Positions 48,318-53,053 of a DNA stretch of 64,000 bases are shown here, piece by piece. The notes beneath the pieces were generated by a model that saw only the letters and a list, made by a program, of their open reading frames with translations, searched no databases and was not told the origin of the DNA. Origin of the DNA: an uncultured Pseudomonadales bacterium (GTDB lineage Bacteria; Pseudomonadota; Gammaproteobacteria; Pseudomonadales; Azotimanducaceae); the NCBI GenBank assembly GCA_943787425.1, contig CALSMJ010000001.1, positions 1,415,271-1,479,270 on the forward strand, given 5' to 3'. Each line of letters opens with the position of its first letter. Position 1 is the first letter of the stretch. A program made the translations under genes and the position numbers.

Positions 48318-49274
48318 TTACCACGCATAAGCTTCAGGCGCGCGACCCATCGGCGGGAAGATCTCATCGAGCCTTGCGAGCTGCGCCCTATCCAATGCCA
48401 GATCGCGCGCCGTCAGCGCTTGCTCAAGTTGCGCAACCGAGGACGGGCCAATAATTACAGAGGCAACCGCTGGTTGATGCAACAACCAGGAAAGCGCAAC
48501 GGTGCTGGGGTCCAACCCGAGATCGGCAGCAAACGCTTCAAATGCCGCAAGCTGTTCTCGGTGCAACCCTCGGGTTGTTTGAAGCTGCTGCCGACGTCCA
48601 GCAGTTGAACTCGGTCCCGCCAGCAATCCCCCTGCCAAAGGACTCCAAGGCAAAAGACCAACCCCATAGCCTTGGCAAGCAGGAATGACTTCAAGCTCAG
48701 CGTGACGGGTAAAAAGATTATACAGGCCTTGTTCAGACACCAGACCAAGCCGTTGCTGGAAGCCGCGCCGCTCATTGGTTTGGGCAATCCCCCAGCCTGG
48801 AAAATTACTCGATCCCACGTAAATAATTTTACCTTGCGTGATTAACCGATCCATGGCTTGCCAAATTTCATCCAACGGCGCTGAGCGATCAATGTGATGC
48901 ATTTGATACAAGTCAATGGTTTCAACGCCCAACCGCTTAAGGCTTGCCTCACAGGCTGAGACGATATGCCGGGCTGATAATCCACGATGATTCACGTCGT
49001 CCGACATGGGTTCATAGACTTTGGTGGCCAGCACCAAAGCCTCGCGACGACTGCGATCCTCAGCCAGCCAGCGCCCAAGCAGCAATTCCGTTGCGCCGAC
49101 GCCTAGGTGACCACCATATTGATCCGCTGTATCGACAAAATTAAGCCCACTTGCAAGGGCGTGATTCAACATCAAAAAGGCATCCGCCTCGGGCGTTCTA
49201 GGGCCAAAGTTCATCGTACCCAAGGCCAGTTCACTGACCTTTAGGGCTGAGCGCCCAAGACGTCGATATTGCAT
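48318..49274 (-). CDS. aldo/keto reductase
   Basis: NADPH-dependent aldo/keto reductase of 318 residues. It shows LALGTMNFG near 16-24, FVDTADQYGG near 46-55 (Asp, Tyr), ATKVYEP near 87-93 (Lys), YQMHHID near 122-128 (His) and SEQGLYNLFTR with the cofactor region. Full length, unlike the broken relative at 9570-10543. Its start is 12 bp after the PhyH gene, so the two are probably an operon. Confidence 0.9.
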   Translation of the reverse strand: MQYRRLGRSALKVSELALGTMNFGPRTPEADAFLMLNHALASGLNFVDTADQYGGHLGVGATELLLGRWLAEDRSRREALVLATKVYEPMSDDVNHRGLSARHIVSACEASLKRLGVETIDLYQMHHIDRSAPLDEIWQAMDRLITQGKIIYVGSSNFPGWGIAQTNERRGFQQRLGLVSEQGLYNLFTRHAELEVIPACQGYGVGLLPWSPLAGGLLAGPSSTAGRRQQLQTTRGLHREQLAAFEAFAADLGLDPSTVALSWLLHQPAVASVIIGPSSVAQLEQALTARDLALDRAQLARLDEIFPPMGRAPEAYAW

Positions 49275-49286
49275 TAACTTCCCCTC

Positions 49287-50210
49287 TTATGGCGCGCGCA
49301 AGGTTGCACCGGTGACCAATTCTTGGTCTTTACCGGCCACACAGAACCGCGTTAATTGTTGTGCGCGGGCTGGTAATAATTGATGGTCCGCATAGCTAAT
49401 GCCCGGCACGACCGGTTCTCGGAACCACGGCGCATAAAACTCCAGATTCGGGATAGATCGCACCTCATCGGATAGGTTTGGCGTGCCACCGTGCCAGGCC
49501 CTCACGTCGCGTACCATAATACTGCCCGCTGATACTGGGCAAACTGTGCTCAAGCGCATCCACTCCGGCTCTGCCTTCAATCCCGGAATCCGCTCGCGCG
49601 ACTTTTGGGTACCCGGGATTTGCCGTGTTGGACCATTGAGCGCGTGAACGTCTTGGGGCAAAAAATTAACGCAAACATAAGGACAAGGCAGGTCACGAAT
49701 ACTGGCATTGCCCCTTGGGTCATGAAACGCGCTGAAGGGCGTTTTGTCTGGCGCTTCCCAATCTCGAACATCCGCATGCAGCCGCTGATAGTCGACGGCC
49801 CCCGGTAGGCAAAAGTCGCCGCTGGCGCTTCTCAAGGCATAGTCTGGATTGCCAAAAATTGCGTCCAACAGCTCGATCACCGGCTTGACCGACAACAGCA
49901 TCTGCCAGGCAGGACGATGCAACTGACTACGCGTTAGACTCGAGCCCCCAAAGGAATAGCGCTTGGGGCCGCGATTCCCCAAACCTGTTGGGTCCAGCGC
50001 CGTAATCTCAGCGACTGCGTCGGCAACACCGGATTGCAACAACGCCAATTCATCGCTTGATAACACGTCTTCTATGACGACAAAGCCATCTCGATCAAAC
50101 AACCCAACAGCGCGTTCAAGCTCTGTTGGCTTCAGAATTTCTAGGCCTTGAATGCCGGAATTCGTTAGCAGGTGCGTTTTCAGCTTCGTTAATGCTTTCT
50201 CTGAGAGCAT
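49287..50210 (-). CDS. phytanoyl-CoA dioxygenase family protein
   Basis: Fe(II)/2-oxoglutarate-dependent oxygenase of the PhyH family (307 residues). The metal triad is visible as HADVRD near 143-148 (His, Asp) and AWHGG near 235-239 (His), with an Arg for 2-oxoglutarate in DEVRSIPNLEFYAPW. It would hydroxylate an unknown substrate. AAGGGG precedes the ATG; operon with the aldo/keto reductase downstream. Confidence 0.87.
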   Translation of the reverse strand: MLSEKALTKLKTHLLTNSGIQGLEILKPTELERAVGLFDRDGFVVIEDVLSSDELALLQSGVADAVAEITALDPTGLGNRGPKRYSFGGSSLTRSQLHRPAWQMLLSVKPVIELLDAIFGNPDYALRSASGDFCLPGAVDYQRLHADVRDWEAPDKTPFSAFHDPRGNASIRDLPCPYVCVNFLPQDVHALNGPTRQIPGTQKSRERIPGLKAEPEWMRLSTVCPVSAGSIMVRDVRAWHGGTPNLSDEVRSIPNLEFYAPWFREPVVPGISYADHQLLPARAQQLTRFCVAGKDQELVTGATLRAP

Positions 50211-50479: not shown

Positions 50480-51397
50480 TTAAGCCAAAAACACGCAGGT
50501 TGGACAGCCCGAGTCTGCCGCCTCGGCGTCCGACTCAAACTGATACTGCGGCGTGTCGAGCCGGGGCAGTCTAAAATCACTGTCTGCCCCAGCGCCGTCT
50601 GGCGCTGCCGGTCGCATCACCGCATCCTTCCAACCGTGGTCCGGCTGCCACTCAAAGGGCAGGGTTTTAATGTCACCTGAATGCGTCATCTCTTCAAACC
50701 CCTTCAGCGCCTCAGACATCAGGGCGATCTGCTCATCCAATGCATGCGGTCGGCCACTGGTATGACCCAATGGGAAGTCCACGAAACTTGCCCGCGGAGG
50801 CCGTACCGCACGGGTAATCGACAAAGCGCTCGACAGGCACATCGTCGGGATTCCTAAGGCTTCAATTTCACGCGCAATCAGTCCCACGGACTGATGACAA
50901 ACCGGTCACGCCGGAACCAGTAACACCACGTCAGGTTGATCAGACAACAAACGGGCAGCCAAGGCCGGCGCCAGGATGTCTTTCACTTTGCGGGCGGAAT
51001 AAATACCGCCCATAAAGGTGTAGGCGCGCTCGGCAAGTGCGCCAAGAAAGCCCGAAGCCACGAGTCGCTTTAAAGGCTCAACCGGAAACACAACGTTCGG
51101 ATCCTTCCGCACTGGCGCCAAGTCGTAAGCAAAGTGGGTCGCCCGCAAATCCTCGGCACGCCCTAGGACATTGATTTCACGATAGCTCAGGTCATCTTTG
51201 TAATGAAACGCGACCTGCCCGCGAGTGTAAAGCCCGCCCGAGGCAATCAACGACAGTTTGGCTTCAGATAGTGGTTTTTTTAAGGGTGCCAAGGCGATCG
51301 CTGTGTCGTTATAGACCCACTGATAGCTGGGATAACCCAACGCCTCATACTGTTTTTGGGTGCGCTCGATATAATCAATAGGGGGTTGCTTAACCAT
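50480..51397 (-). CDS. putative selenoprotein, glycine/sarcosine/betaine reductase B family
   Basis: Single gene of 305 residues with one internal TGA (50906-50908) read as selenocysteine, residue 164. Frames on both sides are the same frame, and the translation across is continuous family sequence: DVVLLVPA-U-PVCHQSVGLIAREIE. The N-terminal half (LSLIASGGLYTRGQ, DLSYREINV, TFMGGIYSA) matches the GrdB-like family, in which this site is Sec or Cys. UxxC (164-167) would be the redox site; the C-terminus also has a CxxC (GCPTC). A perfect hairpin 10 nt after the TGA fits a bacterial SECIS. GAGGA precedes the ATG. GrdA/GrdC partners are absent, so glycine reductase activity is not implied. A nonsense mutation of a Cys codon is the alternative. 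Confidence 0.85.
50877..50895 (-). promoter_or_regulatory. candidate bacterial SECIS hairpin
   Basis: On the coding strand AUCAGUCC-GUG-GGACUGAU: 8-bp perfect stem, 3-nt loop beginning with G. It starts 10 nt after the UGA and its loop is 18 nt after it, within the spacing known for bacterial SECIS elements. The stem can extend past one mismatch by U-G, G-C and U-G pairs. Confidence 0.7.
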
Positions 51398-51493: not shown

Positions 51494-53053
51494 CTACCAC
51501 CAAGTGGTATACAGCGCGATGAGAATCAAAGTCACAACCAATGCCGAGAGGTTGAATGCCCGGGTCGTGCCGAATTCAATTTCAACCAGGTCGATGGCGC
51601 CTGCTTGCTTTTCGCCGCCTTGCCACAAGCTGACCACGACAGCAAGCAGCCCGCACAGCACAAAGACCAGCCCAACTCGGTCAATGAACGGCAGTTCTGG
51701 CCAAGTTATTTTGAAGGCAAACGACAGCACTGCCGAGCCCACCGCCGCCGTCAGCGCCGCGCTCGCCGTGGCGCGCGGCCAAAACATCCCCAGCAAAAAA
51801 ATCACCACAATCCCTGGGGTAAAAAATCCAGTGAACTCCTGGATGTATTGAAAAGCCTGATCGAAATTACCCAGTAGGGGCCGGGCGCAAACCATGGCCA
51901 GCAGCATTGCAACCAGTGCCGCACCACGCCCCACCCGGACCAAATGGCGCTCTGACTTCTGCGCTGAAAACGGCGCATACAGATCTAAGGTGAAGATGGT
52001 CGCAATGCTATTAATCATTGAGGCGAGCGACGACACGATCGCCGCCAACAAGGCTGCAAAGACCAAGCCCTTTAAGCCAACGGGTAATAGGGTCATAGCC
52101 AGAGGATAGGCTTGATCTGGGGCATCAAGCCCGGGCTCGAGCACAAACATCGCAATCCCGGGCAACACCACAATCAAAGGCATCAATAATTTCAAAAAAG
52201 CGGCGAACGCCATGCCTTTTTGTGCGGCCTGCAGACTACCGGCCGCCAGTGCTCGCTGAATAATGTATTGATTAAAGCCCCAATAGGACACATTCATGAC
52301 CCACATTCCGCCCAGCAACACCGATAAGCCCGGCAAGCTGATGTAGTGCGGATGCGCCGGCGTCAAAATCATGTCGAATTTTTCAGGCGCGGTATCCAAC
52401 AGCTGAACAAACCCTTGCCAAGGTCCAGCGCCCAGCGCAATCTCATCGAGCAAGATCCACGAGATGAGCAGTCCGCCAGCAATCAAAAGTACGACCTGAA
52501 GCAGATCGGTAAAGGCGACCGCTTTCAAGCCGCCATACAAGGAGTACAGGAGTGCAAAAACCCCAATCAATCCGAGCCCGGTGTTCAAAGCCAATCCAGT
52601 CACGGTGTGAATGGTGAGCGCGCCCAACCACAAAATGGCGGTTAGGTTGACAAAAACATAGACCGCAAGCCAAAACAGCGCGAGCACAAGACGGACCCTT
52701 GAATCGAAGCGTTGCTCCAAAAATTGCGGCATGGTCTGAATATTGTGCTTTAAAAAAACAGGTAACAAAAATTTACCGACTAAAATCAAAGTGATCGCCG
52801 CCATCCACTCATACGATGCAATGGCTAAACCAATTGCATAGCCCGAGCCCGACATGCCAATAATTTGCTCGGCTGAGATATTGGCGGCCACCAGAGACGC
52901 GCCCACAGCCCACCACGGCAGTGACCGACTGGCCAAGAAATAATCTTGGGTTGTCTTCTCATGCCCTGCGGGTTCTCGCGAGAACCAAGTGGCCAAGCCA
53001 ATGAGCAACAAGGCATAAAGCCCAATAATGACGACATCAGGGGTTGCGAGCAT
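51494..53053 (-). CDS. sodium/solute symporter (SGLT-like, SSS family)
   Basis: Inner-membrane sodium symporter of 519 residues with 13-14 helices. Typical SSS/SGLT stretches are DYFLASRSLPWWAVGASLVA near 37-56, NISAEQIIGMSGSGYA near 59-74, and a sodium-site region LLAAIVSSLASMINSIATIF near 338-357. vSGLT-like proteins import sugars such as glucose or galactose. It follows a GH30 glycosidase and a cupin on the same strand, which suggests uptake of the released sugar. Confidence 0.9.
   Translation of the reverse strand: MLATPDVVIIGLYALLLIGLATWFSREPAGHEKTTQDYFLASRSLPWWAVGASLVAANISAEQIIGMSGSGYAIGLAIASYEWMAAITLILVGKFLLPVFLKHNIQTMPQFLEQRFDSRVRLVLALFWLAVYVFVNLTAILWLGALTIHTVTGLALNTGLGLIGVFALLYSLYGGLKAVAFTDLLQVVLLIAGGLLISWILLDEIALGAGPWQGFVQLLDTAPEKFDMILTPAHPHYISLPGLSVLLGGMWVMNVSYWGFNQYIIQRALAAGSLQAAQKGMAFAAFLKLLMPLIVVLPGIAMFVLEPGLDAPDQAYPLAMTLLPVGLKGLVFAALLAAIVSSLASMINSIATIFTLDLYAPFSAQKSERHLVRVGRGAALVAMLLAMVCARPLLGNFDQAFQYIQEFTGFFTPGIVVIFLLGMFWPRATASAALTAAVGSAVLSFAFKITWPELPFIDRVGLVFVLCGLLAVVVSLWQGGEKQAGAIDLVEIEFGTTRAFNLSALVVTLILIALYTTWW

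Follow-up and report, generated by a model that had tools for sequence, protein, structure and literature searches.

An in-frame UGA in a gene of the PrdB/GrdB superfamily from an uncultured Pseudomonadales bacterium is very likely read as selenocysteine

Two consecutive open reading frames on the minus strand of the window, by which we mean the whole 64,000-nucleotide stretch of DNA that was analysed, raise the question of whether the TGA between them ends a protein or is read through as selenocysteine (Sec). The list of open reading frames divides the locus into a frame of 163 amino acids followed by TGA (50906..51397) and a second of 135 amino acids (50480..50887), and ordinary annotation is likely to split the gene in the same way. 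Translation of the minus-strand frame 51397..50480, from the ATG at 51397-51395 to the TAA at 50482-50480, crosses a single TGA (50908-50906) with no second internal stop and gives 305 amino acids, along the full length of which homologues can be aligned. An earlier note on this DNA had described the two frames as one frame interrupted by one TGA, with a single ribosome site, and both observations held: a purine-rich AAGAGGA ends 6 nt 5′ of the ATG, and by eye there is none before the GTG that opens the second frame. This GTG (50887-50885) is a mechanical start call and coincides with the apical loop of a hairpin. The TGA (50906..50908) corresponds to residue 164, in the redox-site context LVPA-U164-PVCHQSVGLI, where the U-P-V-C-H motif also contains Cys167 (50897..50899), the predicted resolving cysteine of a UxxC pair. 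We consider it very likely that the gene encodes one Sec-bearing redox protein of the PrdB/GrdB superfamily, and are close to certain that the UGA at codon 164 is decoded as Sec. For annotation, the locus is a clear case in which a UGA cuts a real gene in two.

Conservation of the TGA and of the hairpin downstream of it

A contig search yielded 127 relatives, and in the best 80 of these, the loci that were kept, the codon-164 site is TGA without exception (80/80). A sequence pattern recognised 79 of them, while the truncated locus L138 failed the pattern and was read separately. According to their record titles, the relatives come from Pseudomonadales and other Gammaproteobacteria, Myxococcota, Deltaproteobacteria, Binatota, Chloroflexi, and Entotheonella. 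Searching the genomes of the family gave matches in 132 of 150, with TGA in every match among those listed; three of the entries listed also have TAG and two have two TGAs. The same TGA is present in three separate assemblies (L071, L072, and L073) at 86-89% protein identity, and loci L021-L050 and L071-L150 were partly drawn from the same genomes. Two plasmid-borne alphaproteobacterial relatives have TGC, and hence Cys, at the Sec site. Aligning homologues at residue 164, a check that the earlier note had proposed, favoured its reading of a selenoprotein gene with a UxxC motif. Judged from the sequences compared, so conserved a TGA is more than chance.

Immediately 3′ of the UGA, the codons CAT CAG TCC GTG GGA CTG ATT form a SECIS-type hairpin (50877..50895, minus strand; 10-28 nt after the UGA) with an 8-bp stem and a small GUG apical loop. 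Its G in the loop and its position directly after the UGA fit the description of bacterial SECIS elements given in passages of the 2005 Sargasso Sea survey (PMC1088965). The synonymous codons that build the stem are close to fixed. The Ser codon is TCC in 77 of 79 loci and the Gly codon is GGA in 74 of 79, whereas over the rest of the downstream halves of these genes TCC makes up 17% of 717 Ser codons and GGA 16% of 649 Gly codons. Pairing between the Gln wobble base and the first base of the Leu codon is compensatory, 70 of 79 distinct sequences having G-C, 8 having A-T, and 1 having G-T; the 79 were obtained from 81 loci, including the window's own and L138, the latter standing outside the 79-locus codon and tail counts. 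The two outermost stem pairs are kept in 77 and 65 of the 79, not always. The remaining UxxC paralogues with Sec (16 loci, 15 distinct sequences) show A-T in place of a T-A pair in 14 of 15 and lack the innermost stem pair in 14 of 15. In five paralogues with a UxxD motif ACC pairs with GGT, and in the two Cys (TGC) homologues the stem pairing is not kept.

Folding energy was dropped as proof of a SECIS element, being weak for the window's own sequence. Its hairpin did not stand out from synonymous recodings (z = -0.49), of which 30% were as stable, or from shuffles (z = -1.43; 19/200 as stable), and the mean z over 30 loci in the energy test was -1.49. Because single-sequence folding energies are weak, we relied on codon constraint and covariation. 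An Rfam search of 4.2 kb around the gene gave no match to a SECIS family and one chance-level miRNA match. Comparison among related sequences, which are not independent of one another, shows that this candidate element is under selection as RNA, as a bacterial SECIS element would be.

The genome of the window has a second UGA gene (C3:529944-530717; L163:1426-2277, minus strand) with the context IPL-U-PVCHQTVSL and its own stem, TCAAAC/GTTTGA. The ATG of this gene overlaps the TGA that terminates a gene for an acyl-CoA thioesterase, and the UGA gene lies downstream of an adenosylhomocysteinase-like gene. The five UxxD paralogues (L174, L176, L178, L179, and L182) were drawn from five further genomes of this family, one of which, G127, is of the same genus. 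They read UPLDHQ, with Asp in place of the resolving Cys, and keep both the TGA and the hairpin, forming a selenoprotein group that lacks the usual second thiol. These five of the 21 paralogue loci failed the UxxC pattern; they stand outside the 16-locus UxxC stem counts and inside the count of tails, which took in 21/21.

Selenocysteine machinery of the genome

Whether this bacterium can insert Sec was a further check put forward by the earlier note, and it was borne out for tRNA-Sec and selD, while selA and selB were not found. ARAGORN placed a tRNA-SeC (UCA) on contig C6 of the genome, which Infernal scored at 45.8 bits, just under the Rfam cut-off of 47. The molecule has Sec-type features, namely an 8-bp acceptor in the centroid fold and a 6-bp D stem, and its fold is unremarkable against shuffles (z = -1.21). 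The same 93-nt sequence occurs unchanged in five genomes of the genus (the window's own, G142, G104, G071, and G087), of which G142, G104, and G071 have selA. In a profile search of the genome selD scored 259 bits, over its cut-off of 125. The SelD part is fused to a pyridine nucleotide-disulphide oxidoreductase domain in one 740-residue protein, also on C6 (L019:13052-15274); similar Ndh-SelD fusions are described in passages of the 2008 GOS paper (PMC2398784).

No match to selA was obtained in the assembly (93.66% complete), nor anything over the cut-off for selB; nine selB matches below the cut-off look, in our reading, like other translation GTPases. Across the family, selA exceeded its cut-off in 125 of 150 genomes and gave no match in 18, which include the window's own and G087. 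In two genomes of the same genus, G087 (96% complete) and G116 (80%), selA was not found and the TGA gene is present; G087 has the identical tRNA-Sec yet no selA match. The near relative G022 has selB adjoining selA on a 19.4-kb contig, which by Pfam also carries FtsX/MacB-type permeases, an ABC ATPase, and a competence protein, together with genes that from their sequence appear to encode a thioesterase and a histidinol-phosphate aminotransferase. The permeases and ATPase are presumably LolCDE, which is essential in gammaproteobacteria. Against the genome of the window this 19.4-kb stretch gave two short matches only, and the permease found at best 25-36% identity over part of its length, whereas the neighbourhood of the UGA gene has 84-87% DNA identity to L072, which we take to be from G022. 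Pieces of 3-8 kb of the G022 selA-selB stretch are present at 83-87% in G135 and G142. The simplest reading of the absence of selA and selB is an assembly gap, because the assembly lacks all of the 19-kb segment that carries selA and selB in the relative, unrelated genes included, and because the presumed LolCDE genes sit on that segment. The family genomes with no selA match, G087 at 96% completeness among them, weigh against this reading.

These observations bear on three other accounts of the locus. The UGA could be a true stop that separates two half-proteins, or be read as another residue by another route, in keeping with the selA and selB genes not found in this assembly and with the lack of a selA match in G087 and G116. 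We judge this highly improbable given a UCA tRNA with Sec-type features that is identical in selA-bearing relatives; general reassignment is unlikely as TGA serves as the stop codon of the acyl-CoA thioesterase gene that precedes the second paralogue, and the unrelated genes on the missing segment make a gap the simpler account. A hairpin that arises merely from conserved protein sequence and codon bias would agree with the peptide HQSVGL, invariant in alignment A3, and with the weak single-sequence energy tests. Nevertheless, the codons fixed for Ser and Gly are uncommon ones in these genes, the wobble positions covary, and pairing is lost in the two Cys homologues, so that we give this account even less credence. 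Least probable of all, to the point of being negligible, is that the TGA arose by sequencing error or marks a decayed pseudogene: in this assembly it is known from the assembled sequence rather than from reads, but it recurs in every kept locus, both halves of the protein are conserved, and the hairpin is under codon constraint. Decoding of the UGA as Sec in one continuous protein is the reading that we carry forward.

Family assignment, C-terminal tail and proposed function

The earlier note had placed the protein in the GrdB family; this stood at the level of the superfamily, while the nearest curated model is PrdB, not GrdB. Pfam PF07355 (GRDB) matched at 6e-8 with 32.8 bits, above the gathering cut-off of 22, over profile positions 213-345 of 347 only. 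Of five NCBIfam models, PrdB scored far higher than those for GrdB, and none reached its cut-off: TIGR04483 (PrdB) gave 159.1 bits (1.2e-46) vs 300, TIGR01917 (GrdB) 40 bits vs 602.2, and the broader TIGR01918 39.3 bits vs 65.45, while for TIGR01917, NF040794, and NF040795 the protein reached less than 10% of the cut-off.

The protein might accordingly be the PrdB subunit of D-proline reductase, as marine surveys name such proteins, and TIGR04483, its best curated model, is matched by 59 of 59 members. We think this very unlikely. The score is about half the cut-off, and identity to clostridial PrdB is 33.6% over 70% of the query. The partner subunit PrdA had no match in the window's own genome (G000, 93.66% complete) or in G022, with a clostridial control record matching at 2e-296, and PrdA was likewise not found in the window or the 80 related loci, with the control found.

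The protein ends in a subfamily-specific tail with the motif CPTC (Cys298 and Cys301; 50495..50506, minus strand), which clostridial PrdB lacks. A CxxC is present at this end in 77 of 79 subfamily loci (L124 and L142 are without it), in 0 of 21 other Sec paralogues, and in neither of the 2 Cys homologues, with every one of these read as far as its stop. The second UGA gene of this genome likewise has no such tail. When 59 sequences were aligned, U164 (entered as C), C167, and H168 were invariant and C298 and C301 nearly so; C167 is invariant in both alignments A1 and A3 and is replaced by Asp in the separate UxxD paralogue group. In a tree of every third of the 79 loci, a single tail group appeared in only 52% of bootstrap trees. 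An AlphaFold2 model (pLDDT 92.3, pTM 0.92) sets residue 164 directly before a helix (165-180) and after a strand (157-161), and the mean pLDDT of 95 for residues 291-300 and of 92 for residues 301-305 suggests that in the model the tail is packed. No solved relative was found by sequence, and a fold search of the PDB gave a best match of TM 0.31, nothing usable.

The gene neighbourhood was dropped as a guide to function, with no pathway assigned. On the same strand, a sodium:solute symporter gene (SSF; 51494..53053) lies 96 bp upstream (6 of the 80 loci have a related gene on that side, 5 of them within 250 bp), and downstream lie genes for a phytanoyl-CoA dioxygenase-like protein (PhyH; 49287..50210) and an aldo/keto reductase (48318..49274), each linked in 5 of 80 related loci. 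These links are limited to 5-6 loci near the window's own clade, and a fumarase gene adjoins in 5 loci. We clustered 913 neighbouring ORFs of the 80 loci; among the best 25 clusters, the largest covers 14 of 80 loci and is more than 500 bp from the gene in each. Pfam was run on 52 of 55 close same-strand neighbours (the three omitted overlap the gene ends), with 25 of 41 families listed. The neighbours of the gene change between lineages.

In the mechanism that we propose, a tRNA-Sec(UCA), charged by way of SelA and SelD and brought to the ribosome by SelB bound to the hairpin, would allow the UGA to be read as Sec. The selenolate of Sec164 would attack an electrophilic substrate, Cys167 would resolve the intermediate as an Se-S bond, and the Cys298/Cys301 pair would pass on electrons from thioredoxin or a similar donor. 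The protein would then work like the Sec half of the GrdB/PrdB reductases, without a pyruvoyl subunit. We regard a stand-alone thiol/selenol reductase as probable, and a role of the CxxC tail as electron relay as plausible at slightly less than even chances. A somewhat more tentative proposal is that the members with the tail form a separate reductase that is self-sufficient and combines Sec164-Cys167 chemistry with the CxxC as a built-in relay; a selenium nucleophile of Stickland type would here have been freed from the pyruvoyl complex for use by non-clostridial, many of them marine, bacteria, and the name "proline reductase" would be wrong for the group. Passages of one report propose that a GrdB-type Sec attacks the polar C-F bond of fluoroacetate in a Synergistota bacterium (PMC10838667), and by analogy the window protein might carry out attack chemistry of the C-F type.

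Comparison with known relatives

This kind of selenoprotein is itself already in the field, at least as passages of two marine surveys present it. In the Sargasso Sea survey of 2005, Sec-containing PrdB with UxxC ranks third in abundance among the families, with 42 genes, and the text ascribes D-proline reduction to it (PMC1088965); the 2008 GOS survey counts 235 Sec and 110 Cys members of PrdB, and its table gives UxxC and Pfam GRDB (PMC2398784). A marine survey of 2021 attributes 6.4% of selenoprotein genes to "proline reductase" (PMC9402790). The window gene appears to fit this marine PrdB group, the shared Sec, UxxC, and Pfam GRDB being a likeness of name and motif rather than of sequence; it differs in that D-proline reduction is ascribed there, while PrdA was not found here. 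The literature passages on the group make no mention of the C-terminal tail, the UxxD group, or a missing PrdA, and a literature search covering sources outside subscription journals gave no title or abstract start on the tail or function of the subfamily. In so far as these passages describe it, the group is among the commonest marine selenoproteins, and its published name points to a reaction for which the partner subunit was sought here but not found.

Clostridial PrdB (Terrisporobacter, TIGR04483) is homologous over residues 36-251 and shares the U-x-x-C-H active site. It differs in reading UGTCHRS rather than UPVCHQS, in being shorter at both ends, and in having prdA, prdC, and prdD as neighbours. 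GrdB, GrdF, and GrdH are more distant: residues 33-212 of the window protein are weakly homologous to their C-terminal half, whereas at least the first 211 profile positions are unmatched. The two alphaproteobacterial relatives (WP_207415257.1 and WP_035710215.1), which are annotated "glycine/sarcosine/betaine reductase selenoprotein B family protein", carry CPxCHQ at the same site and have no prd genes in the stretch shown. At about 34% identity, they differ from the window protein in the Cys for Sec, the unkept stem, and the missing tail. On a Roseomonas plasmid (L185:3968-6353), the Cys homologue lies tail to tail with a gene annotated as protein adenylyltransferase SelO. A direct biochemical handle is offered by the CxxC conserved at the C-terminus and by the relatives that separately carry UxxC, UxxD, or Cys.
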